NCBI GenBank assembly: GCA_019752115.1
Contig: JAIEMN010000019.1
Location: forward strand, 124,001 to 188,000
Reading direction: 5' to 3'
Length of the DNA: 64,000 nt
Origin: Gemmatimonadaceae bacterium
Lineage (GTDB): Bacteria > Gemmatimonadota > Gemmatimonadetes > Gemmatimonadales > Gemmatimonadaceae
Part shown: positions 32,257 to 44,000 of the stretch, piece by piece
How the letters are laid out: each line of letters begins with the position of its first letter
Position numbering within the stretch: position 1 is the stretch's first letter
The notes under the pieces: model-generated
Told to the model about the DNA's origin: nothing
The model's input: the letters and a program-made list of their open reading frames with translations, nothing else
Databases searched by the model: none
Position numbers and translations under genes: made by a program

Positions 32257-35200
32257 TCAGGGGGCGGAGGCGCGCAGGCGCTTCCGCCCCTTGAACGTTC
32301 GCAGGATCATCGCGGGCATCACGAAGAGCACGCCGAGCGTGGCCGCGACGGTGCCGCCGGCCGTGGCCAGCGCGATCGCGCCGAACATGGTCTTGGTGCT
32401 CGTTCCCACACTGAGCGGAATGAGGCTCGCCAACGCCGAGAGCGTGATGATCACGATCATGGGCGCCCGATCGAGCACCGCGCGCAGGACGAGTCCGGCG
32501 TCGAGGCGACCGAGCGCGCGCCGTTTTTCGAGTGCGGCGTCGATGAACAGAATGCCCTGATGCACCGCGAGTCCCACCACGAGAATCACCCCGACCGCGG
32601 CTTCGCGCGTGAACGCGGCGTCGGCCGCCCAGAACGCCACCACCACGCCGGCGAGGGCAAGCGGCAGTGAGAGAAAGACCATCGCGGCGCCCCACACGCT
32701 GTCGAAGACCAGCGCCACCGTGAGGATCACCAGCGCCAGGCCAATCGCGAACACGAGCCAGAGCCCCTTCGCGCTCTCGTCTTCCTGATAGAAGCCCCCG
32801 TCGGACAAATCCTTGATGCCGTACCCCGCCGGTGCGCTCAGCGACGTGACGAAGGCCTGGTGCGTGCGCCGCGCGAGCTTGGCGGGCCCGCGGAAGTCGT
32901 AGCTCACCTGGCGGACGTACTGCTGATCTTCGCGCACGACGGTGCTCAGCGCCTCGCGCGCATCCACGGCGGCCACATCGCGAATGCGGACCGGCGCGCC
33001 GATGAGGTTGGGGACCAGTGCATCCTGCAGCTCCTCGAGGCTGCGCTCACGCGCGCCGCTCGCCTTGACGGTAACGGGGAGCTCCTCGCCGCCGATCTCG
33101 AGCCGCTGCCCACCCACCGGCCCGCGCACCTCGCGCGCGACCGCCTGCGCGAACATCGCCGCGTTGAGCCCATAGCGGGTGAGCGCCGCCCGGTTGGGGT
33201 CGAGCACGACCTGATAGCCTCGCTCGCCGCCGCCCCACGAATTGCCGCTCGTGATGCGCACCTCCTGCACGCGCGGAATGCGCTCGAGCCGCCGCTTCAG
33301 GTCCTCAGCCACGCGCGAAACGCCGTCATACGAGAACCCTTTCACCTGCATCCGGAACGTGGCGAAGCTTCCCCCGCCGCCCCCGCTCGAGAACCCCGGA
33401 CCATCGCCATACACGCCGACCTGCGCGCCGCCGATGAGCACGGCGCGCTGCGTGAGCAGTTCCTGCAGCTCCATCGGCGCCGCCGTGAACGCGCCCTCGC
33501 GCGTGAACACCACGCTCATCTGCGCACTCGTGCGCCCACTCGACTGCGTGCGCACCTGCTCCACCTCCGGGCGCCCGACCACGAGACGTTCGAAATCGCG
33601 CATGGCGCGATCGAGCGTGGCCGGATCGGAGCCGCGCGGAAAGCTCAACGACGCGGTCAGCGTGGTGCGGCGCTCCCCCCATCCGCCCCAGCTGGACCGC
33701 GGCACCTTCACGATGAACACCCACGTGAGCCCCGCTAACGTTCCCACCGTGAGCAGCAGCGTGGCCCATCGCCAGCGGAGTGTGCGCGCGACGACCGCGG
33801 TGTACACGTGCCTGACGCGCGGCCACGGCGCTTCGCGCGCGGCGACGCCCTTCCCGAGCGCGGGGACCACGAGCAGCGCCGTGATCACACTCCACACAAG
33901 CGCGATGACGAACGCCAGCGCAAAGGGCACGAAGGCCGCGCGCGCGTTCCCCTGCAGATAGAGAAACGGAAAGAGCACCACCGCGGTGGTGAGCGTACTG
34001 CCAATGACCGCCGGTGCGATGCGTCGCGTGGCCGCCGCACGCCCATCCGGCGTGTCCGGTGCCCGCGCCAATCGATCCACCACCACGATCGCGTTCTGCA
34101 CCAGAATGCCCACCCCCATCCCCAAGCCAGCCAGCGTCAGCAGGTTGGCCGGAATATTGGCCACATAGAGCGTGAGTGCCGTGGCCGCGAGGGCGACGGC
34201 CGCTGACCCCATCACCACCGCCACGGCGCGCCAGCGGCGCAGCAACAGCGCGAGCACGAGCAACACCGCCCCAAGGGCAATCGCGCCGCGCGTGGTGAGG
34301 TCGCGGAGCTCCTTCGCCAGCGCCACGCTTTCGTCGTTGACGATGCGCAGGCGAATCCCGGGGGGCATCACGCGCGTGAGCTCCGCAATCACCGCCCGCA
34401 GCGCCGCCGCCGTCTGGATGGCATCGGCGCCCGGATGGCGTGTGACATCCACACTCACCGCCGGAATGCCATCGATCCGATAGAACCGCCCCCGCTCGTC
34501 TTCCTCGGCGCGAATGGTGGCCAATTCGCCCAGCCGGAACACACGCCCACCCGCGCCCATCACGGGCAGCGCCGCGAGGCTGTCCAGCGCCGCCGGCTGA
34601 TCGCGCAGCACCACACTCCGCACCTGCGCCCCGGCGGTGAGATCACCCAGCGCCTCCACCACCCGCGCCCCCTGAATGGCCTGCGTGAGCCGCTCCGGCG
34701 GGAGCCCCATCTGCCGCAGACGCGTCGCGTCGTAGCTCACCGACACCCCGAGATCGGCACCACCGCGCAGCTGCACACCCGCCACCCCGGCCACACTCGC
34801 CAGCCGTGGCGTCACGCGTTCGTCGAGCAGCCGCTGCAACGCCCCACTGGTGTAGGGGCCCGACACGGTGAGGGAGAGCAGGGGCGATTCCTCGAGCCCC
34901 TCCGGTACGTAGTTCGACACATTCGGCGGGCTCACGCCCGGCGGCAGCTCGCTCCGCAACAGCTCGAGCCGCTCCAGCATCGCCAGCCGCGCCATCTGCA
35001 CATCCGCGCGCTCCTCGAGCTCCACCGTGAGCAGCGCATAGTCGTCGTAGCTGGTGCTGTTCACCTGCTTCACACCCCGCACGCCCAGCACCGCACTTTC
35101 GATGGGCGACGTGAGGTAGGTCTCGATCACCTCGGGCGAGGAGCCCGGCCACGCGGCGGCGATACTGAGCCGCGGCAGCTCGACGGTGGTCTTGGTGGCG

Positions 35201-35295
35201 AGCGGCAGGCGCGTGAACGCGATGGCCCCGGCGAGCAGCAGCGCGAGACAGCTGGCCCACACCACGGCGGGTCGGTGTGCGGCGGCGCGGATCAT
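32257..35295 (-). CDS. RND efflux permease (AcrB/MdtC-like), second of two
   Basis: A 1012-residue resistance-nodulation-division permease with twelve hydrophobic segments in the 1+5/1+5 layout and two large periplasmic loops. Early residues MIRAAAHRPAVVWASC and IAAAWPGSSPEVIETYLTSPIE match the family start and porter domain; TLAGLGMGVGILVQNAIVVVDRL is the TM4 region. In that TM4 segment the usual Asp-Asp pair of proton relay appears to be replaced (VGILVQNAIV), so coupling may depend on the partner permease. The TTG at 35343 is rejected for ATG 35295, which overlaps the truncated toxin frame by ATGA. Together with the permease at 35714 and the adaptor at 38842 it may form an MdtBC-like heteromeric pump. 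Confidence 0.88.
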   Translation of the reverse strand: MIRAAAHRPAVVWASCLALLLAGAIAFTRLPLATKTTVELPRLSIAAAWPGSSPEVIETYLTSPIESAVLGVRGVKQVNSTSYDDYALLTVELEERADVQMARLAMLERLELLRSELPPGVSPPNVSNYVPEGLEESPLLSLTVSGPYTSGALQRLLDERVTPRLASVAGVAGVQLRGGADLGVSVSYDATRLRQMGLPPERLTQAIQGARVVEALGDLTAGAQVRSVVLRDQPAALDSLAALPVMGAGGRVFRLGELATIRAEEDERGRFYRIDGIPAVSVDVTRHPGADAIQTAAALRAVIAELTRVMPPGIRLRIVNDESVALAKELRDLTTRGAIALGAVLLVLALLLRRWRAVAVVMGSAAVALAATALTLYVANIPANLLTLAGLGMGVGILVQNAIVVVDRLARAPDTPDGRAAATRRIAPAVIGSTLTTAVVLFPFLYLQGNARAAFVPFALAFVIALVWSVITALLVVPALGKGVAAREAPWPRVRHVYTAVVARTLRWRWATLLLTVGTLAGLTWVFIVKVPRSSWGGWGERRTTLTASLSFPRGSDPATLDRAMRDFERLVVGRPEVEQVRTQSSGRTSAQMSVVFTREGAFTAAPMELQELLTQRAVLIGGAQVGVYGDGPGFSSGGGGGSFATFRMQVKGFSYDGVSRVAEDLKRRLERIPRVQEVRITSGNSWGGGERGYQVVLDPNRAALTRYGLNAAMFAQAVAREVRGPVGGQRLEIGGEELPVTVKASGARERSLEELQDALVPNLIGAPVRIRDVAAVDAREALSTVVREDQQYVRQVSYDFRGPAKLARRTHQAFVTSLSAPAGYGIKDLSDGGFYQEDESAKGLWLVFAIGLALVILTVALVFDSVWGAAMVFLSLPLALAGVVVAFWAADAAFTREAAVGVILVVGLAVHQGILFIDAALEKRRALGRLDAGLVLRAVLDRAPMIVIITLSALASLIPLSVGTSTKTMFGAIALATAGGTVAATLGVLFVMPAMILRTFKGRKRLRASAP

Positions 35296-35450
35296 GTCGG
35301 CACCCGCGTGGCGGTGCTGACAACGACGAGGCCCGAGGGACAACGAACGAGGATCTCCGCGCTACGTGGATCACGCGCCGCGATCCCTCCGCATGTGATC
35401 AGCGCCAGCGCCAGGCGCGCCGGCATGCACTCGTCAAGCAGTATGCGCAC
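35292..35450 (-). pseudogene. remnant of a DUF5615 (PIN-like) toxin gene
   Basis: A 52-codon frame from GTG 35450, 18 bases after the DUF433 antitoxin stop, in the usual antitoxin-toxin order. It begins with RILLDECMPARLALAL, the N-terminal signature of DUF5615 PIN-like toxins (which start with LLDENLP-type acid motif), then deviates; AEILVRCPSGLVVVSTATR faintly recalls the family strand before the second acidic pair but lacks it. Normal members are about 110 residues. The frame ends by ATGA overlap with the RND permease start. I infer a toxin gene shortened by internal deletion and loss of its 3' part. Confidence 0.55.
35317..35352 (+). repeat. GGGACAACGA-ACGAGG repeat units, second locus
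   Basis: GGGACAACGAACGAGG at 35337-35352 matches the units at 776-791 and 795-810 at 15 and 13 of 16 positions respectively, and a shorter related unit (TGACAACGACGAGG) lies at 35318-35331. It falls inside the degraded toxin frame. Confidence 0.45.
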
Positions 35451-35468
35451 GCATTGATCAGGGCGCGG

Positions 35469-35690
35469 CTAGGCCGCCGGCGCTCGGACAAGCGCTTGGC
35501 GTGCAATCTCGAGGGCCGCGATCACCTGCTCGCGCCGCACACTCGGAAAGTCGCCAAGGAACTCGTCGAGCGAATGCCCCGCCTCCAAATAGTCGATCAA
35601 GCTCTGCGCCGGGACACGCGTGCCGACAAACACGGGCGTCCCGCCCAGAACCTCAGGGTCGCAATGGATCACTGCAGCAGACTCAGCCAT
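35469..35690 (-). CDS. DUF433 family antitoxin-like protein
   Basis: A 73-residue DUF433 protein: CDPEVLGGTPVFVGTRVPAQSLIDYLEAG is the family signature (GTPVF.GTRVP), followed by SLDEFLGDFPSVRREQVIAALEIA, the small winged-helix part. These proteins are usually paired with a DUF5615 PIN-like toxin encoded immediately downstream. ATG 35690 has GGAG six bases upstream; the frame is open to 35717. It sits between two RND permease genes on the same strand (23-base gap to the upstream one), a strange place for a toxin-antitoxin pair, and its toxin partner is reduced to a remnant. Confidence 0.85.
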   Translation of the reverse strand: MAESAAVIHCDPEVLGGTPVFVGTRVPAQSLIDYLEAGHSLDEFLGDFPSVRREQVIAALEIARQALVRAPAA

Positions 35691-35713
35691 CGCGCTCTCC
35701 GGAAAGGGGCTCC

Positions 35714-38700
35714 TCACAAGTTAGCCCTCCCGAGTCGTTCGTGCCGCCCCTCCAGCGCCGCATACGCCACCGGCAGCAGGAAGAACGTCACCAGCAGCGC
35801 ACTGATCGACCCGCCGATGATCCCCGCCGCCAGCGGCTGATAGAGCGCGCCACCACTGCCCCAGCCGAACACCAGCGGCAGCACGCCGGTCACCGTGGTG
35901 ATGCTCGTCATCGCAATCGCGCGGAGCCGCTGCTCGCCGCCGCGCAGAATGGCCTCGTGCAGCGGCAGCCCCTGCTCGCGAAACTGGCGGATGGCATCGA
36001 GCTTCACCACCGCTTCGTTGTCGGCCATACCGATCATCACCACGATGCCGATGAGGCTCACCGCATTGAGGCTCTGCCCGGTGAGCCACAGGAAGATCAC
36101 CGCACCCGCGCCCGCGAGTGGCACCGTGAGCATCACGACCAGCGGAATCGTGAAGCTCGCAAATTCGCCGGCAAGCACCAGGAACATCAGCGCTGCCGCG
36201 AGCACCGCGACCAGCGTGAGCTCATTGCTTGTGCGCTGTCGCTCGGTGTCGGCGCCGGCCACCTGCCAGGTCACATTCGGCGGCAGCGAGACGCGCGTGA
36301 GCGCCTCCTGCACGGCCTCCGTGGCCCGCGCCGTGCCGCCCGCTTCCACCAGGCCTTCCACGATCGTGACCGGCCGCTGCCCCACGCGCACCACTTCCAC
36401 CGGCGCGCGCACCTCCTTCACCGTGACCAGCTGCTCCACCGGTACCCCGCGAATGGTGGTGCGCAGCGCCGTGGCCAGATCTTCGTTACTCGCGCCAGCA
36501 TAGCGCACGGCGATGGGCGTGCGCTTGTCGGTCTCCCGCAGGTCACTCGCGACCACGCCCCCCAGCGCGCCCGCCAGCGCGCTCGCCACCTGCTGCGGCA
36601 CGATGCCGCGCTGCGCAAGGCGTTCGCGTTCGAGCCCGATCTCGATGAGCGGCTGCGTCGCCGCATACGCATCGCGCACATCGGCCAGCTCGCGCACCGC
36701 GCCCAGCCGCCGCCGCACCGTATCCGCCCACTGCTGCGCCACCACCGGCGTGGGCGCCGACAGCTCCACGCGGACCAGCCGCCCTTCGCGCCCAATGAGC
36801 GACCCGAACTCACTCTGCCCCGCGAGATCGATCGCCAGCGCCCCGTTCGCCAGGTCCGGCACCTTGGCCCGCAGCTGTTGCGCCAACACCGCCGCATCCG
36901 CGCCCGCCGGCACCGGCACAATGAGCTGCGCCGACGCCGAAGACCCCGGATCCGCCCCCGCGAGAATCTCCTCATCGGTGGCTTTGCCCACGCGCGCATA
37001 GATATCCCGCGCACCCAGCTGCTTCGCCGCCGTCTCAAGTCTCGCCACCTGTACGGTAGTCGCCTCGAGCGAAGTCCCCTGCGGCAACCCCAGCTGCGCC
37101 ACCAGAACCCCTTCATCGACGCGCGGCAAGATCTCCTTTGGCAACCGCACAATCAGCACCACGGTCAGCGCGAGCGAAGCCAGCGCGCCTCCAAACACCG
37201 TACGCGGATGTGCCAGCGACCACACCACTCCGCGCTCATATCCATGCGCCAACCGCGAGCCAACGCGAGAGAGCAAGGACGCCGTTCCCGCAGTTTGTCT
37301 TCCCGCAGTACGTCTTCCCGCAGTACGTCTTTCCGAAGTTTCGCTGTTCTCTCTTCTCCGACGCCTCCCCACCAAGAGCACCGGCATCAACGTCAACGCC
37401 AACAAAAGCGACGCCGCCACCGTCGTAACCACCGACAGCGAAAGGTCTCTGAACAGCGCCGCCGCCAACCCTCGCACAAACACGATCGGCCCAAACACCA
37501 ACACCGTCGTCAGCGTCCCCGCAAACAACGGCGCCGCCACATCGTCCGTCCCCACCACCGCCGCCTCCCGCAGCGGCATCCCCTCGTCTCGCCGTCTCGA
37601 AACCGCTTCCGCCACCACAATCGCCGTATCCACCAGCAAGCCCGTGCCGAGGGCCAGACCGCCGAGCGACAGCACGTTGATGGTGACGCCAAGCGCCTGC
37701 AGCGCGACGAGCGCCATCAGCACCGACAGCGGCACCGTGAGCCCAATCGCCAGCGACAACCGCCAGTCGCGCAGGAAGAGCAGAATCACCAGCAGCGACA
37801 GCACGCCACCCGCCACGATCTCCTGCCCCAGATTCGACAGCGCATCCACCACGAAGTCCGCCTGCGCCGCCACCACCGTCACCGCGAGCCCGGGAAACTC
37901 CTTCTCCAGCGCCCCAAGCGTTTCGCGCAAGCGCTGCGTCACCGCCACCGTGTTCGCGCCCGCATCCTTGTACACCACCAGCCCCACCGCCTCGGCGCCG
38001 TCCAGCCGCGTCAGCGTGGTGGGCTCGGCGAGCCCCAGCTGCACGGTGCCCACATCGCGCAGCGTGAGCCCGCGCCCCGGTACCCCAATGGGCGCGTCGA
38101 GAATCTCCGCCGGTGCGCGAAACTCGGTCAGCGCCCGCACTGAAAAGCGGAACTGCCCGCGCCGAATGGTGCCACCCGCACCGGCCACGTTCTGCGCGCG
38201 AATACTCGCCGCCACATCCTCCGGCGTGAGATCGAGCGCCCGCAGCTTGTCGGCATCAAGCGACACCCGCACTTCGTCGTTCGGCGCGCCAACCACCGCC
38301 ACGCTCGCCACCCCTTCGATCTGCTCGAGCCGCCGCGCGTGCACCTCGCTCGCGGTGCGTGCCAACGCCCGCAGATCCGCCGCCTGCCGGTTCGCCGTGG
38401 CATTCGCTGCCGGCTTCACCGCCAGCACCGCAATCGGCCGCTCACCCGGATCACTCGTAAGCAGCGTCGGCCGCTCGGCGCGCTCCGGTAACCGCCCGCG
38501 CGCCGCATCGAGCCGCTCACGCACCGCGAGCACGGTGCCGCGCATGTCGGTGCCCCACGCAAACCGCGCCGTGGTGGTCACCTCCCCATTGCGACTCACG
38601 CTGCGCAGCTCCACCAGCCCCGGTGTCGCCGCAATGGCCTCCTCGATGGGTTCAGCCACAAAGCGCGACACTTCCGTGGCCGCCGCCCCCGCGTACGCCG

Positions 38701-38845
38701 TGCGAATGGTCAGCACCGGCAACGACACATCGGGCAACAGCGATACCGGCAGCCGCGTGAGCGACACCGAGCCCAGCAACAGCACCGCCAGAATGGCCGC
38801 CACCGTGGCGACCGGGCGGCGCACGGCATACGCGGCGATACTCAC
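35714..38845 (-). CDS. RND efflux permease (AcrB/MdtB-like), first of two
   Basis: A 1043-residue RND permease. The start MSIAAYAVRRPVATVAAILAVLLLG and SRFVAEPIEEAIAATPGLVELRSVSRNG match the family; the TM4 segment reads GLALGTGLLVDTAIVVAEAVSRRRDEG, keeping one of the usual acidic residues, and NDEVRVSLDADKL and SLIGIVVMIGMADNEAVVKLDAIRQFREQG cover the second half. The central inter-half loop contains an unusual TAGRR repeat (about residues 505-520) encoded by a 15-bp tandem repeat. Its start overlaps the adaptor stop by ATGA, so adaptor and permease are coupled. No outer-membrane factor gene is in the window. Substrate unknown. Confidence 0.9.
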   Translation of the reverse strand: MSIAAYAVRRPVATVAAILAVLLLGSVSLTRLPVSLLPDVSLPVLTIRTAYAGAAATEVSRFVAEPIEEAIAATPGLVELRSVSRNGEVTTTARFAWGTDMRGTVLAVRERLDAARGRLPERAERPTLLTSDPGERPIAVLAVKPAANATANRQAADLRALARTASEVHARRLEQIEGVASVAVVGAPNDEVRVSLDADKLRALDLTPEDVAASIRAQNVAGAGGTIRRGQFRFSVRALTEFRAPAEILDAPIGVPGRGLTLRDVGTVQLGLAEPTTLTRLDGAEAVGLVVYKDAGANTVAVTQRLRETLGALEKEFPGLAVTVVAAQADFVVDALSNLGQEIVAGGVLSLLVILLFLRDWRLSLAIGLTVPLSVLMALVALQALGVTINVLSLGGLALGTGLLVDTAIVVAEAVSRRRDEGMPLREAAVVGTDDVAAPLFAGTLTTVLVFGPIVFVRGLAAALFRDLSLSVVTTVAASLLLALTLMPVLLVGRRRRRENSETSERRTAGRRTAGRQTAGTASLLSRVGSRLAHGYERGVVWSLAHPRTVFGGALASLALTVVLIVRLPKEILPRVDEGVLVAQLGLPQGTSLEATTVQVARLETAAKQLGARDIYARVGKATDEEILAGADPGSSASAQLIVPVPAGADAAVLAQQLRAKVPDLANGALAIDLAGQSEFGSLIGREGRLVRVELSAPTPVVAQQWADTVRRRLGAVRELADVRDAYAATQPLIEIGLERERLAQRGIVPQQVASALAGALGGVVASDLRETDKRTPIAVRYAGASNEDLATALRTTIRGVPVEQLVTVKEVRAPVEVVRVGQRPVTIVEGLVEAGGTARATEAVQEALTRVSLPPNVTWQVAGADTERQRTSNELTLVAVLAAALMFLVLAGEFASFTIPLVVMLTVPLAGAGAVIFLWLTGQSLNAVSLIGIVVMIGMADNEAVVKLDAIRQFREQGLPLHEAILRGGEQRLRAIAMTSITTVTGVLPLVFGWGSGGALYQPLAAGIIGGSISALLVTFFLLPVAYAALEGRHERLGRANL
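37285..37329. repeat. three tandem 15-bp repeats inside the RND permease gene
   Basis: Three copies of TTCCCGCAGTACGTC type (first copy differs at two bases), with a degenerate fourth. In the protein they encode RTAGR-type repeats in the loop joining the two halves of the permease. Flanking bases are richer in T and A than the rest of the gene. Confidence 0.8.
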
Positions 38846-40008
38846 CCGCGGGGCTTCGCGTCGAGGACTTTCGCTGGCGCCACCTTTACCGGCGCATCGT
38901 GCGTGAGCGTGAGATGCCCCTCCACGATCACCGGGTCACCGGCTTTCACCGGAATCTCCCCAGTCGCCGAATCCGGCAGCACCTCCGTCTCGCGTCCGTT
39001 CGACCGCCCAGGGACGATGTACGTCCACTGCGCGCGCCCATCGCGCACGACAAACACGAGCGGCCGTCCATCACGCTCGATCACCGCACGACTCGGTACG
39101 AGCCGCCGCCCGCGCAAGCGCGTCGCTTCGAGCTCCACATCGGCATACATGCCCGGGCGCAGCACGCCGTCGCCGGCCACGCGCACCACAGCGCGCCCCG
39201 CTCGGCTGGTGCTGTCCACCAGCGGCAGCAGCGCATCCACCCGCCCACGCAACACCCGTCCCGGCGCGCCGGCACTGGTGACTTCGGCCTCGCCGCCCAC
39301 CTTCACCAGCGGCAAGTCGTGCTCCAGCACCTGCGCCTCGATGCGCAGATTGCGCGTATCGACCACCGTCAGCAGCGGCTGCCCCGCGCCGATCTTCTCG
39401 CCCACGGCGATATCAATGCCGTCCACCATGCCAGCCACCGGCGCGCGAACGACGGCGCGGTCCTGCTCGTACTTGGCCCGCTCGAGGCGAAGCCGTGCGC
39501 CGGTCAGCCCCGCCTTATTCATCAGTGCCTTGCGCTGCTCCGCCGTGGGGGAGCGCCCGGTGACCAGCGACTCCGGCACAAAACTCTCGAGAAAGCGCTG
39601 TTCCGCTTCGTCCGCCGATGCCTGCGCCTCGCGGACCGCCAAGTCGAACGGATAGCTGTCGAAGCGCAGCAGCACCTGCCCCTGCGTCACCGCCTGCCCC
39701 GGCTTCACCAACAGCTGCGCCACCGTGCCCCCCACCTCACTGCGCAGCTTCACCACCGCATCCGACCGGACCTGTCCGGTCGTGCGCACATGCAGCACGA
39801 GGTCACCCTCGCGTGCCTCCTCGGCGGCCACTGGTAATGCCAGTGCCGGCCGGCCGGAGTCGTTCGCCATGGCCGCGAGCGAGTCGCCGGCGGCAGAGCG
39901 CGATGAGTCGCCGGTGGCCGCGCCGACTTTGCTGCAGGCAGCGGCGAACATGGGCACCAGAATCAGCGCCAGCGCGGCGTACGAATGGGGACGAACGGCA
40001 TTCAGCAT
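38842..40008 (-). CDS. RND efflux periplasmic adaptor (membrane fusion) lipoprotein
   Basis: A 388-residue adaptor. The leader ends in FAAAC, a lipobox, so it is probably inner-membrane anchored. Domains in order: beta-barrel/lipoyl start (HVRTTGQVRSDAVVKLRSEVGGTVAQLLVKPGQ), alpha-helical hairpin (about 130-185), second lipoyl half (VVRAPVAGMVDGI..VGEKIGAGQPLL), beta-barrel and membrane-proximal domain (RLVPSRAVIERDGRPLVFVV). It links the permease to an outer-membrane channel. ATG 40008 is used; upstream in-frame starts would lie before the signal. A TATCCT about 26 bases before the ATG may be the -10. First gene of the efflux operon; regulation is not evident. Confidence 0.88.
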   Translation of the reverse strand: MLNAVRPHSYAALALILVPMFAAACSKVGAATGDSSRSAAGDSLAAMANDSGRPALALPVAAEEAREGDLVLHVRTTGQVRSDAVVKLRSEVGGTVAQLLVKPGQAVTQGQVLLRFDSYPFDLAVREAQASADEAEQRFLESFVPESLVTGRSPTAEQRKALMNKAGLTGARLRLERAKYEQDRAVVRAPVAGMVDGIDIAVGEKIGAGQPLLTVVDTRNLRIEAQVLEHDLPLVKVGGEAEVTSAGAPGRVLRGRVDALLPLVDSTSRAGRAVVRVAGDGVLRPGMYADVELEATRLRGRRLVPSRAVIERDGRPLVFVVRDGRAQWTYIVPGRSNGRETEVLPDSATGEIPVKAGDPVIVEGHLTLTHDAPVKVAPAKVLDAKPRG

Positions 40009-40064
40009 TGAGGCGGGGTGGGTCGTCTGCGCTAGGATAGCACGGCGTGGGCGGCCATGCGACA

Positions 40065-41141
40065 TCATTTCGACGCAGCGGTCTCGAATCCGGGAATCAC
40101 GTACACCTCCAGCTGCTGCAGGTCATCCTCGGTCCGTCGCGCGACCACCACCCGGTTCCCCGTGTACCCCACGATCCGGGAGCGACCGGGAAATCGAATG
40201 CGCCGCGAAGTGCCCGACGGGGCCAGCTCGAGATACTCCGTGAACGGCTCGCCCGGCGCTCGGGTTCGGCGGAGCCAGGCTGTGCCTGGGCGCGGCACGC
40301 GCAGCCCATTCTCAGTCCACAGGGGTTGCCACCGTGGGATCTTCTCGCGGACCGCGGCGCGCGTCTCCACTGAGCGCGCACTGTCGCTCACTGGGAAGCG
40401 CGCGACCGCCGGCAGACGGGTCGTGGCGGTGATGCGACCATTCGCATCGCGCCATTCTAGCCGTTCGCTTTCGGCGCGCGCCACCACCAGACTGCCATCG
40501 GGGCCAACCGCCCACGCATCCTGTGGAGCGAACGGGACGAAGAAATACGCCACGCCCGCTGGACGGCCGCTCGGGCCGGCGGGCATTGGCGAAGCCACCA
40601 TATCGGCGCCCGCAACGACGGCGAGCGTATCCAGGCGCCCCGTGGCTGCCGTCCAGCGCATCAACGCGCGCTCTGGTTTCGCCGGCGGCGGCGCCGGAAA
40701 GCCAAGCCCGTACGCGTTGCCGCGCGCATCCGCATACTCGGCGTACCTGAGCACATGTTCGCTTGGACCAAAGACGCGCGTGCGTTGAAAGGCCCCGGTG
40801 GAATCGAACAGCATCCACCGATTCTGCGGCGGGTCGATGAGCGCGGTGAGTCCATTCGGCATCGCGATGAGGTGCTGCGCCGACTCGTATTCCCCCGGCC
40901 CGCTCCCGTGACGCCCAAGCACGGTCCGCTCGCGCCCGCGCCCCGTCACCCGCACGAATTCCCGCGCCCCCGGGTCCGCCACCAGCATCGACCCGTCACC
41001 AAACAAACGGACCGTACTCACATCGGTGAACTCGGCGGCCGTCTGATACAGCGGCGCGCCCACCGTCACGATCGGCTGCGCCGCCGCCGTCCCGCCGATC
41101 GCGAGGCCACCGACCAGCGCCCCCCACCATCTCATGCGCAT
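40065..41141 (-). CDS. exported 6-bladed beta-propeller (NHL-like) protein
   Basis: About 358 residues with a signal peptide (WWGALVGGLAIGGTAAAQ). The mature part has repeated propeller strands: LFGDGSMLVADPGAREFVRV, GRHGSGPGEYESAQHLIAM (the GSGPGEF-type hallmark of secreted 6-bladed propellers), LIDPPQNRWMLFDSTG, WAVGPDGSLVVA, and RIVGYTGNRVVV. A paralogue with the same layout is at 59292. No enzyme motif is visible; such proteins may bind ligands or partners at the cell surface. ATG 41141 has GGGAG five bases upstream. A composite operator (41169-41201), identical in its fixed positions to the one before the AraC gene, stands 27 bases before the ATG, so control by that regulator is likely. 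Confidence 0.75.
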   Translation of the reverse strand: MRMRWWGALVGGLAIGGTAAAQPIVTVGAPLYQTAAEFTDVSTVRLFGDGSMLVADPGAREFVRVTGRGRERTVLGRHGSGPGEYESAQHLIAMPNGLTALIDPPQNRWMLFDSTGAFQRTRVFGPSEHVLRYAEYADARGNAYGLGFPAPPPAKPERALMRWTAATGRLDTLAVVAGADMVASPMPAGPSGRPAGVAYFFVPFAPQDAWAVGPDGSLVVARAESERLEWRDANGRITATTRLPAVARFPVSDSARSVETRAAVREKIPRWQPLWTENGLRVPRPGTAWLRRTRAPGEPFTEYLELAPSGTSRRIRFPGRSRIVGYTGNRVVVARRTEDDLQQLEVYVIPGFETAASK

Positions 41142-41168: not shown

Positions 41169-41201
41169 GTTGCCCACCATGACCACCTTTTGCCCATGGT
41201 G
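41169..41201 (-). promoter_or_regulatory. composite operator, copy A (upstream of the beta-propeller gene)
   Basis: Plus strand: GTTGCCCACCATGA, seven variable bases, TTGCCCATGGTG. The same two elements with the same seven-base gap occur in opposite orientation at 42765-42797. TTGCCC recurs as a direct repeat 20 bases apart, and CACCATG/CATGGTG forms a nested inverted repeat. In copy A the element lies 27 bases before the ATG of the minus-strand propeller gene. Confidence 0.8.
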
Positions 41202-41281
41202 ACTAGGCACTTTTTCAGTTTCCACCACACGATGGACCCGTCCCGTCCGGCCGCCATTGGCCGGCGGGTTCTGGGATGACT

Positions 41282-41307
41282 GCAATCATGCCCCCTTCAA
41301 TGATTGC
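41282..41307. promoter_or_regulatory. inverted repeat upstream of the TPR gene
   Basis: GCAATCAT (41282-41289) and ATGATTGC (41300-41307) form a perfect 8-bp inverted repeat with a 10-base spacer, 31 bases before ATG 41339. With CTG/CAG outside it may extend with a one-base bulge. It looks like an operator for a dimeric regulator or a small leader hairpin. Confidence 0.45.
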
Positions 41308-41338
41308 GCAGTAATGCTCTCCTGAACTCTTTCCTTAC

Positions 41339-42547
41339 ATGCGGAAACCACTCGCACCGCTCGACGCGCTGCAGGCCGACGCGACCAGTGCGCAGGGGCG
41401 CCGGGTCGATCTCGACGCGACCCTCGCCACCTGGGTCGCGGCCGCGCAGCTGTCGTGTGAACTCGCCGCCCGGTACGGCGCGCTCACCGACGTGCCGGCC
41501 ACCCTGGATGGGCTCCTCGAGCGGGACGCCCTGCTGCGCGCCGTACACACCCGCCCCACCATGGTGCACGATGGCGCCGCGCCTCCCGACACCGCGCTCG
41601 GCATGACCGCCGAGCGCCTGCGCGTGCTCGCCGAGGAGATGGAGCAGCACGGCTGCTTCGAGCTGGCGCTCACCACCGTATCAGCAGTCTGTCGGCTCAC
41701 CGCACGCACCGATGCCACCGGGCACGCGCTGGCCACGCTCCACCTCGGGCGCATCGCCCGGCAGATGAATGCCCTCGAGGCGGCCGAGGACGCGTACGCG
41801 GCGGCCATTGCGAGGGCCCTTCATCTAAGGGAACCGCCGATCGCCGCGCGTGGCCATATCGGGCTCGCGCTCGTGGCCGACATGCGCGGCAACCTGCCCG
41901 CCGCCGCCGAGCAGTATCGCGAAGCCTTGCGGCTGGCGGTGCCGGGCGGCGGCGCATATCGACAGGCGCTGCAGGGGCTCATGTCGCTCGCCGTGACCCG
42001 CAATGACCTGGGCGAAGCGCTCGTGCTAGGGTGGACGATCTACGATGCCAGCACCGATGACGCCGACGCGCGAGCGGGCGCCCTGAGCGAACTCAGTCTG
42101 GTCGCACTCAAGGCCGGGTTTCCCTCCCAGGCACGGGCGGGGTTCCGCATCGTGCTCGACAGCCGCGTGCACACAAGCCAGCGACTCGCCACCCTGGGGG
42201 GCGATGTGCGCGCCGCCGCCGCGCTCGGCCAGCGCCGCGACGTGGCGCAACGTGCGGCGGAGATCGAACAGGAGGTGGCCCGCGGCGATGCGCTATACAC
42301 CGCGACCATGACGTATCTGCATCTCGCCGAAGCACAGCAGCTGATCGGCGAGCAGGCGCAGGCCGAGGCGGCGCTAACCCGCGCCCGCGAACTCGCGGCC
42401 CGCTTTGGGTACCACGAGTACACCTTTGCGGCCGATGCGCTCGCAGCGCGGTGGCGCGAGGCGCGTCCGCTCGAGGCCGTGGCGCCGCTTTCCGTCAGCT
42501 CGACGGAAGTCTCCGAGGCCATCGAGCGGTTCGCCATGCTCGCGTAG
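41339..42547 (+). CDS. TPR-repeat protein, probable regulator or scaffold
   Basis: A 402-residue, alanine- and leucine-rich soluble protein. Several 34-residue TPR-like helices are visible, for example LATLHLGRIARQMNALEAAEDAYAAAI and HIGLALVADMRGNLPAAAEQYREALRL, followed by a similar series to the C-terminus. There is no signal peptide, membrane segment or DNA-binding motif. ATG 41339 is the first start of the frame; no strong Shine-Dalgarno. It lies between two copies of the composite operator and next to the AraC gene, so it may be part of the same response, for example sensing or relaying a signal. Function not known. Confidence 0.7.
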   Translation: MRKPLAPLDALQADATSAQGRRVDLDATLATWVAAAQLSCELAARYGALTDVPATLDGLLERDALLRAVHTRPTMVHDGAAPPDTALGMTAERLRVLAEEMEQHGCFELALTTVSAVCRLTARTDATGHALATLHLGRIARQMNALEAAEDAYAAAIARALHLREPPIAARGHIGLALVADMRGNLPAAAEQYREALRLAVPGGGAYRQALQGLMSLAVTRNDLGEALVLGWTIYDASTDDADARAGALSELSLVALKAGFPSQARAGFRIVLDSRVHTSQRLATLGGDVRAAAALGQRRDVAQRAAEIEQEVARGDALYTATMTYLHLAEAQQLIGEQAQAEAALTRARELAARFGYHEYTFAADALAARWREARPLEAVAPLSVSSTEVSEAIERFAMLA

Positions 42548-42556
42548 CGCCGACTG

Positions 42557-42703
42557 TCAGCCCCACGGCTTACTATCACGATGCGTCGTATCGCTGGCGG
42601 TGCCACCGCTGTTCGGATCATCGGCGGCGGTGGGCATGTAGCAGGCGGCAACGAGAGGCGCAGTAACGACGAGGGCCAGCAGCAGCAGACGGCGACGCAG
42701 CAT
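42557..42703 (-). CDS. 48-residue lipoprotein
   Basis: A short frame from ATG 42703 to TGA 42557. The N-terminus RRRLLLLALVVTAPLVAAC is a textbook lipoprotein signal with lipobox VAAC (Cys 21), leaving a 28-residue polar tail (TAADDPNSGGTASDTTHRDS). GGAG lies nine bases before the ATG. It is antisense to no other gene, convergent with the TPR gene and divergent from the AraC gene, with the composite operator copy B 61 bases upstream. I do not recognise a family; entericidin-like small lipoproteins are comparable in size only. Confidence 0.6.
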   Translation of the reverse strand: MLRRRLLLLALVVTAPLVAACYMPTAADDPNSGGTASDTTHRDSKPWG

Positions 42704-42764
42704 CGTGAGAGACTCCGGTGAGGGGTTGGCTCACGATGCCGCTCACCGGCTGCCGATACCGCAT

Positions 42765-42797
42765 CACCATGGGCAAACGCTATTCATGGTGGGCAAC
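42765..42797 (+). promoter_or_regulatory. composite operator, copy B (between lipoprotein and AraC genes)
   Basis: Plus strand: CACCATGGGCAA, seven variable bases, TCATGGTGGGCAAC, the exact reverse complement of copy A outside the seven-base spacer. It lies 45 bases before the GTG of the AraC gene in the same orientation that copy A has toward the propeller gene. GGGCAA direct repeats 20 bases apart suit an AraC-type regulator that binds two half-sites on one face of the helix. Confidence 0.8.
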
Positions 42798-42842
42798 GAG
42801 TTTTTTCTTGGGGCGACGCCGCCCGTTTCCTGAGTCTTCTGC

Positions 42843-43682
42843 GTGCACGCTGCGTTCACGATCGGGTTGCTTGCTTCGTCGGCCGATGCCGCCCCGCGCT
42901 TGCGCGAGGCGGCGCGTGGGCGAGCACAGGTGGCCGAGTGTGCATCGATCGAGCAGCTCGTGGCTCTCGTGGCCGACGGCGCGGTGTCGCTGGCCGTGGT
43001 GGAAGTCCGGCGCGCGACCGCGGCCGATCAGTGCCGCGCCATTCGGCAGCTGCAGGCACACTTTCCCGCGCACCCCGTGGTCGCGTGGGCCGATCTGCGC
43101 GAGCTGCCCACCGCCCTGCTCCTCGAGCTGGCGGCCTTGCGCGTCATCGATGTCCTGCGCGGCGACGCCGAGCACCTGCCGAGCGCCCTGGTCCGCGCGA
43201 TTGGCGCGGCGCTGCAGCGCACCGTGGCGGTGGCCATCGCGCAGGCGGTGGGCGATCTCATCCCGCCCCGCCTCACGCCCGTCTTCGAGTACGTCCTGGA
43301 GCACGTGAACGACCGGCTCGATCGCGACCAGCTCGCGGCGACGTTCGGCATTTCGCGGCGCACCCTGCACAATCGCCTCGTTGAAGCCGGGCTCCCACCC
43401 ACCCGGGCCTTCCTCACCTGGTGCCGGGTCTTCGTGGCGGTCGCGCTGCTCGAGCAACCCGGGCACACCCTCGATTCGGTGGCCGGCCAACTCGACTTCG
43501 GCGACGGCGGCGTGCTCGCCAACACCGTCCGCCGCTACGCCGGCGCCGGCATTGCGGAGCTCCGGGCGCAAGGCGCGCTGGCCGCGGCCGCCCGGGCCTT
43601 CCGTGAGCAGGTTCGGGCCGCGCGCGCGGCACCCGGTGCGGCGGCGCGCGACGCCGCAGCTGAGCCCGTGTTGGGCGACTAG
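42843..43682 (+). CDS. AraC-type HTH transcription regulator with receiver-like N-terminal domain
   Basis: A 279-residue protein. The C-terminal part (about 145-245) is an AraC-type double helix-turn-helix: LDRDQLAATFGISRRTLHNRLVEAGLPPTRAFLTWCRV for the first, TLDSVAGQLDFGDGGVLANTVRRYAG for the second. The N-terminal part (about 1-130) alternates strands and helices in the manner of a response-regulator receiver (SLAVVEVRRATA, VVAWADLRELP) but I see no clear acidic pocket, so phosphorylation is doubtful. An alanine/arginine-rich tail follows the HTH. GTG 42843 is the first usable start. The composite operator 45 bases upstream implies self-regulation, and copy A implies control of the propeller gene at 41141. 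Confidence 0.75.
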   Translation: MHAAFTIGLLASSADAAPRLREAARGRAQVAECASIEQLVALVADGAVSLAVVEVRRATAADQCRAIRQLQAHFPAHPVVAWADLRELPTALLLELAALRVIDVLRGDAEHLPSALVRAIGAALQRTVAVAIAQAVGDLIPPRLTPVFEYVLEHVNDRLDRDQLAATFGISRRTLHNRLVEAGLPPTRAFLTWCRVFVAVALLEQPGHTLDSVAGQLDFGDGGVLANTVRRYAGAGIAELRAQGALAAAARAFREQVRAARAAPGAAARDAAAEPVLGD

Positions 43683-43685
43683 CCG

Positions 43686-44000
43686 CTAGGCGGCGGCGAT
43701 CGGCTTGATCCGGGCCAGGTCGTCCTTGATGGCCTGCTGGGCATCCCAGAGGTCCACGGCCCGCTGGGCATTCAGCCAGAAATCCGCCGAATTGCCGAAG
43801 AACCGCGATAGCCGGAGCGCCATCTCCGCCGAGCAGGCGCGCCGCTCGCGGAGCAGCTCAGTGGTGGACTGGCGCGAGACCCCCAGCGCTGCGGCGAGCT
43901 GAGCGGCGCTCAAGCCATAGTCGGGGAGGAACAACTCGCGGAGGAACTCACCGGGATGCGTCGGTCGCCGCTTGAGCGGGCGGTTGTTGGGAAAGCTCAT
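43686..44000 (-). CDS. higA: HigA-type antitoxin (XRE helix-turn-helix)
   Basis: A 104-residue protein: RPTHPGEFLRELFLPDYGLSAAQLAAALGVSRQSTTELLRERRACSAEMALRLSRFFG is the canonical HigA/VapI signature (HPGE.L..EFL followed by an XRE HTH), with NSADFWLNAQRAVDLWDA after it. HigA binds and silences the HigB mRNA interferase and represses its own operon. Its ATG overlaps the stop of the upstream toxin frame by ATGA, the standard higB-higA order. Its stop is only four bases from the stop of the convergent AraC gene. Antitoxin looks intact although the toxin frame is short. Confidence 0.9.
   Translation of the reverse strand: MSFPNNRPLKRRPTHPGEFLRELFLPDYGLSAAQLAAALGVSRQSTTELLRERRACSAEMALRLSRFFGNSADFWLNAQRAVDLWDAQQAIKDDLARIKPIAAA

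Follow-up and report, generated by a model that had tools for sequence, protein, structure and literature searches.

Two copies of a composite sequence located 1.6 kb apart in the window (the whole stretch of DNA analysed, 64,000 nucleotides from a Gemmatimonadaceae bacterium) are predicted to be operators of the AraC-type regulator encoded at 42843-43682, a reading to which we assign a probability of about 0.78. They very probably constitute the autoregulatory operator and a target operator of this local AraC protein. The prediction relies on a motif that is conserved, tied to the regulator, and co-varying within genomes. The sites and the genes around them are the following:

40065-41141, minus strand: secreted beta-propeller-like protein, 358 aa, lineage-specific, whose start is 27 bases from site 1
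41169-41201, plus strand (TTGCCC strand): predicted operator site 1, with half-site cores TTGCCCA at 41170-41176 and 41190-41196, and full 20-bp units at 41170-41209
41339-42547, plus strand: TPR superhelix protein, 402 aa, conserved partner of the AraC gene, with site 1 located 137 bases upstream
42557-42703, minus strand: small lipoprotein-like gene, 48 aa (MLRRRLLLLALVVTAPLVAACYMPTAADDPNSGGTASDTTHRDSKPWG), divergent from the AraC gene and conserved in relatives
42765-42797, minus strand: predicted operator site 2, inverted, with half-site cores TGGGCAA (read on the plus strand) at 42770-42776 and 42790-42796, and full 20-bp units at 42757-42796
42843-43682, plus strand: AraC-type regulator, 279 aa, with an N-terminal CheY-like pseudo-receiver and a C-terminal HTH_18 domain

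Site 1 thus sits between the propeller and TPR genes, and site 2 between the lipoprotein-like and AraC genes. An earlier note on this DNA had described both sites, and direct sequence checking confirmed its description: the pattern GTTGCCCACCATGA-N7-TTGCCCATGGTG is exact at these coordinates and on these strands, all 26 fixed positions agree, and the 7-bp spacers differ (CCACCTT versus AATAGCG). The distances that it gave are right (27 bases to the propeller start at 41141 on the minus strand, 45 bases to the GTG start of the AraC gene at 42843 on the plus strand), and the sites do share one orientation relative to these two genes. The match extends beyond the 33 bp, as the A at 41202 agrees with its counterpart at 42764. 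The 26-position pattern did not occur in 100 dinucleotide shuffles of the window. The regulon scan suggested by the note was run on the whole genome (5.17 Mb, 83 contigs) and returned only the two window sites, with no third match at up to three mismatches; the reversed pattern, used as a control, gave no match genome-wide. A broad regulon was also searched for in the same genome with relaxed patterns, which yielded one weak match with two mismatches and otherwise no further good sites. The widespread occurrence of the pattern, named beforehand as an outcome that would refute the proposal, was not seen. Chance, or a recent duplication of the site, was ruled out, since neither the spacers nor the flanks agree between the copies, and the motif is shared by distant relatives.

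No convincing -10/-35 pair could be placed by eye relative to the sites, and neither activation nor repression is, therefore, claimed. Immediately downstream of site 2 (e.g., window 42798-42806), a short CGACTTTT-like stretch is a possible promoter element; several relatives, those of another genus, g10, included, have a similar stretch after the proximal half-site.

The comparison within the genus was based on 30 genomes, seven of which (the window's own included) carry an ortholog of the regulator, defined by an E-value below 1e-46; the next group of homologs is a distinct 30% paralog. This paralog (e.g., G000:C38:17123-17848) is present in nearly all genomes of the genus, and has no adjoining TPR gene in the two loci examined (L149 and L151). 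The orthologs are 37-58% identical to the window's regulator, and each of the seven genomes contains two inverted sites flanking the TPR and lipoprotein genes; in G052, each site is on a short contig of its own, and the lipoprotein gene is cut by the end of its contig. Counting three extra ones (G044:C1:2739806, G052:C450:1416, and G060:C249:10682), the seven genomes contain 17 sites. Extra operator copies at L094:4807-4833 and L101:3682-3709 lie beside genes resembling further, shorter AraC-like or HTH regulators.

Aligned in gene orientation, the 17 sites define a tandem 20-bp direct repeat, nnACCGnnCAYSRTGGGMAA; every site has TGGG in both halves and an exact period of 20 bp. The earlier note had read the site as direct TTGCCC repeats 20 bases apart, fitting AraC-type binding; the period is retained, but the true repeat unit is larger. 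A weak inverted symmetry at positions -3 to -1 counts against the operator explanation. The direct repeat is found upstream of the AraC gene in 7/7 ortholog genomes, and again at a second place. The recurrence of this 20-bp-period repeat in relatives, together with the regulator, gives comparative support to the proposal that the sites are under selection.

The core is TGGGCAA in the window genome, G054, G044, and G052, and TGGGAAA or TGGGAAG in G043, G059, and G060. Half-sites drift in concert, with a mean identity of 0.75 within genomes versus 0.63 between genomes, an excess reached in none of 5000 label shuffles; same-genome sites are not independent of phylogeny, and the result is unchanged when the close relatives G059 and G060 are both excluded. 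The flanks have no such within-genome excess (0.29 versus 0.33).

The genes that respond to the sites are less firmly assigned than the sites themselves. The earlier note had retained the propeller and AraC genes as those flanking the operators; it missed the 48-aa gene and did not mention the TPR gene located between the sites. While its distances stand, the propeller is only lineage-specific, whereas the TPR and lipoprotein partners are conserved. Judged from gene order, the conserved partners of the regulator are the TPR gene and the 48-aa lipoprotein gene between the sites, and relatives keep the TPR/lipoprotein/AraC block in a syntenic position adjoining rho. From one species to another, site 1 faces different outward genes, which can be propeller-like, thioredoxin-like, or of other types, or there may be no cassette. 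The propeller was rejected as a universal target, as the relatives have no close ortholog of it, and it is a lineage-specific target of site 1 at most.

A serious contender, to which we give somewhat under even odds, is that the AraC-bound operator is real but acts through site 1 on the TPR gene and through site 2 on the lipoprotein gene, with the propeller as a bystander. The TPR and lipoprotein genes flank the sites in the genus, whereas the outward gene at site 1 differs, and the propeller homologs of other genomes, at 33% identity, are not among the sites found. Nevertheless, the boxes of the sites are ordered (ACCG then TGGGMAA) such that site 2 faces AraC and site 1 the outward gene, an orientation comparable to that of the XylS boxes relative to their promoter. 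In addition, the propeller start, 27 bases off, is at a distance similar to the 33-55 bases found at AraC genes, while the TPR start is at least 137 bases away; overall, the genes measured (window, G052, G044, and G054) have their start codons 27-55 bases from the site. As the 27-base gap leaves little promoter room downstream of site 1, activation of the propeller gene from this site would be awkward; repression, or a promoter lying inside the site, would agree with such a gap. The TPR and small lipoprotein genes may be the true targets, or additional ones.

Several features of the surroundings can be added. A small HTH gene (MSFPNNRPLKRRPTHPGEFLRELFLPDYGLSAAQLAAALGVSRQ...) between AraC and rho, at 43686-44000 on the minus strand of the window, resembles a HigA-type antitoxin, and is not at that place in the relatives' maps. 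Beyond the propeller, the window contains RND efflux genes and an adaptor (32257-40068, minus strand), and in G060 an RND efflux adaptor gene directly faces site 1. The cassette beyond site 1 in G052 (L095:2095-5153) consists of two propeller-like genes with a Cys-rich secreted small protein between them.

Outside the genus, homologs of the regulator (E-values of 1e-40 to 1e-61) are found in many other genera, and about 29 of the 33 TPR homologs of the family immediately precede a regulator homolog encoded on the same strand (coordinates compared by eye). In genus g10, the same genes are accompanied by two inverted sites, which are again 20-bp direct repeats but have a different half-site (CGCCACGGGCAA, GCGCCGCGTGCAA). 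Direct repeats of 20 bp also precede the regulator in some genera (e.g., G128, G014, G125, and G075), whereas in five genera an inverted repeat (ACACCGTATGGGCA..GCCCATACACGGTGT type) is found instead upstream of the homologous regulator, which counts against the operator explanation. The autoregulatory position is, therefore, general, while the arrangement is not fixed family-wide. Other families of the class possess the TPR/small lipoprotein/AraC unit too, the tails being different again (L173 in G223 and L174 in G332).

Several lines of evidence point to the AraC protein as the probable binder. The regulator carries a PF12833 HTH_18 domain (residues 164-242, 39.2 bits, above the gathering score), which was found in 7/7 orthologs, and the profile search found no other DNA-binding domain in the unit. 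A genus-wide motif search matched 6/7 ortholog genomes versus 1/23 genomes lacking the ortholog, a co-occurrence that supports the assignment but cannot alone designate the binder, because the sites are inherited together with the AraC, TPR, and lipoprotein genes, as one block. The sole match among the 23 ortholog-less genomes is a weak single one, and the unmatched ortholog genome is G043, whose copies have drifted beyond one mismatch. That another, unlinked regulator binds the sites, the AraC protein being a target and not the binder, appears improbable. The genome indeed encodes many regulators, including eight AraC-type matches, but the motif follows the presence of the AraC ortholog in the genus and has changed along with the regulator in genus g10, AraC-type direct repeats of 20-bp period suit the regulator's HTH_18 domain, and the regulon is confined to the AraC gene's own neighbourhood.

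A far less probable explanation is that the element acts as RNA, the 5' leader of the downstream genes folding into a CACCATG..CATGGTG hairpin. Both window copies can fold in this way (z of -1.25 and -1.78), and there is weak covariation, a level that 18/500 shuffles also reach. Nevertheless, the central pair is broken in 7/15 distinct sites, the invariant part is the direct TGGG repeat and not the stem, and folding is not clearly better than that of shuffles. On the aligned sequences, the CACCATG/CATGGTG palindrome is incidental, and not a conserved part of the operator. Finally, terminal repeats of a 1.6-kb mobile element, as could be suggested by inverted, composite copies flanking a segment of that size, can be dismissed: the synteny of the block, which adjoins rho in relatives, refutes transposon terminal inverted repeats, the flanks show no target-site duplication (ACAACCC on the left, GAGTTTT on the right), no transposase is present among the ORFs between the sites, and single extra sites occur away from the block.

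For the two sites as operators of the local AraC-type protein, we infer binding, dimer geometry, and the identity of the responding flanking genes as follows. Two regulator monomers would be positioned side by side on one DNA face, with one 20-bp unit each, and each monomer would place its two helix-turn-helices on the box ACCG..CA and then, after about one turn, on TGGGMAA. Located 45 bases before the regulator start codon, site 2 would serve autoregulation, and probably the divergent small lipoprotein gene, while site 1 would control the outward gene (here the secreted propeller), and possibly the TPR gene on its other side. Such a regulon would be tiny, with two sites in the window genome and two or three in relatives.

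The N-terminal half of the regulator offers an indication about the input. It is modelled as a five-stranded receiver-like fold (pLDDT 87.5), for which Foldseek returned matches to receiver domains (e.g., TadZ, 4lda), with TM-scores of up to 0.80 by target length. The phospho-acceptor Asp at the end of strand 3 is replaced by Glu in five orthologs and by Ala in two, so that the receiver fold is present but the conserved Asp of phosphorylated response regulators is absent from the seven orthologs. Contact with a protein or peptide is, therefore, the probable input, and the TPR protein may take part in it.

The product of the small gene is also informative. Its secretion signal and lipobox are apparent, as judged by eye, and it ends in PW[GHVN] in the window genus and several others (...KPWG in the window). 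Elsewhere in the family, the apparent signal and lipobox (by eye) are followed by repeats, and the encoded protein often terminates in tandem repeats of 7 aa, such as DFVNPNA x4 (G078), DYINPLG x4 (G081), NYVNPNV-type x4 (G154), DFVNPHI x3 (G158), or three GGSQPWY copies (G014). Repeat-tailed lipoprotein-like genes located by TPR and AraC genes (L128, L135, L138-L140, L147, and L171) are possible multi-copy peptide precursors. It is conceivable, if rather doubtful, that the operators belong to a Gemmatimonadota peptide-signalling unit made up of a secreted, lipoprotein-like precursor whose variable tail is in some cases tandemly repeated, a TPR reader, and a pseudo-receiver AraC switch. The AraC regulator would then switch its own unit and a few secreted proteins via the paired operators. 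The TPR/lipoprotein/AraC layout is a lead for peptide signalling, suggested by sequence, and not a demonstration of it.

Literature searches found no account of this operator or of the TPR/lipoprotein/AraC unit, and no comparable regulon for the phylum Gemmatimonadota. Searched against NCBIfam, the regulator, TPR, small lipoprotein, and propeller proteins matched no subfamily above cut-off. For an uncharacterised AraC subfamily whose input domain is receiver-like, the present analysis offers a concrete predicted operator and a small regulon. Half-site drift at a fixed 20-bp period constitutes a compact case for regulator-operator coevolution. If the peptide reading is true, TPR-based peptide communication would extend to a Gram-negative phylum.

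Compared with known systems, the unit first recalls the RRNPP peptide quorum-sensing pairs of Firmicutes. These are recognised by a receptor of 250-500 aa, a propeptide of 10-100 aa, and their adjacency, a lipoprotein signal counting only at the relaxed level (PMC10075063). In comparison, the window has a 402-aa TPR protein adjoining a 48-aa gene with an apparent secretion signal (judged by eye), in a neighbourhood predicted to be regulated. Unlike RRNPP pairs, the unit occurs in a Gram-negative phylum, its small protein bears a lipobox, its TPR protein is without HTH, and it includes a separate AraC-type regulator. The TPR protein has weak TPR profile matches and is modelled as a TPR superhelix (pLDDT 89) whose best structural matches are LGN, consensus TPR, and other TPR superhelices; as no known RRNPP receptor is present among its 50 best PDB structural matches, the unit is not filed under RRNPP.

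With response regulators and pseudo-receivers (TadZ, 4lda), the regulator shares the (beta-alpha)5 CheY-like fold, but it differs from response regulators by the lack of the phospho-acceptor Asp and by its AraC-type output domain. The regulator can also be compared with AraC/XylS activators. In the XylS/Pm system, two 15-bp direct repeats each consist of a box A (TGCA), 6 bp, and a box B (GGTA) (PMC5481539). The window boxes are different (ACCG..CA and TGGGMAA), the N-terminus is receiver-like, whereas that of AraC/XylS is sugar- or benzoate-binding, and the paired inverted operators around a TPR and a lipoprotein gene have no counterpart there. As in XylS, the operator comprises two direct repeats with a spacing of about 20 bp, and the two boxes of each repeat are separated by about one helical turn; as in AraC/XylS systems, the operator is predicted close upstream of the putatively controlled gene. 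The C-terminal two-HTH domain (HTH_18) and the direct-repeat operator geometry, found in 17/17 sites, are both shared with the AraC/XylS family.
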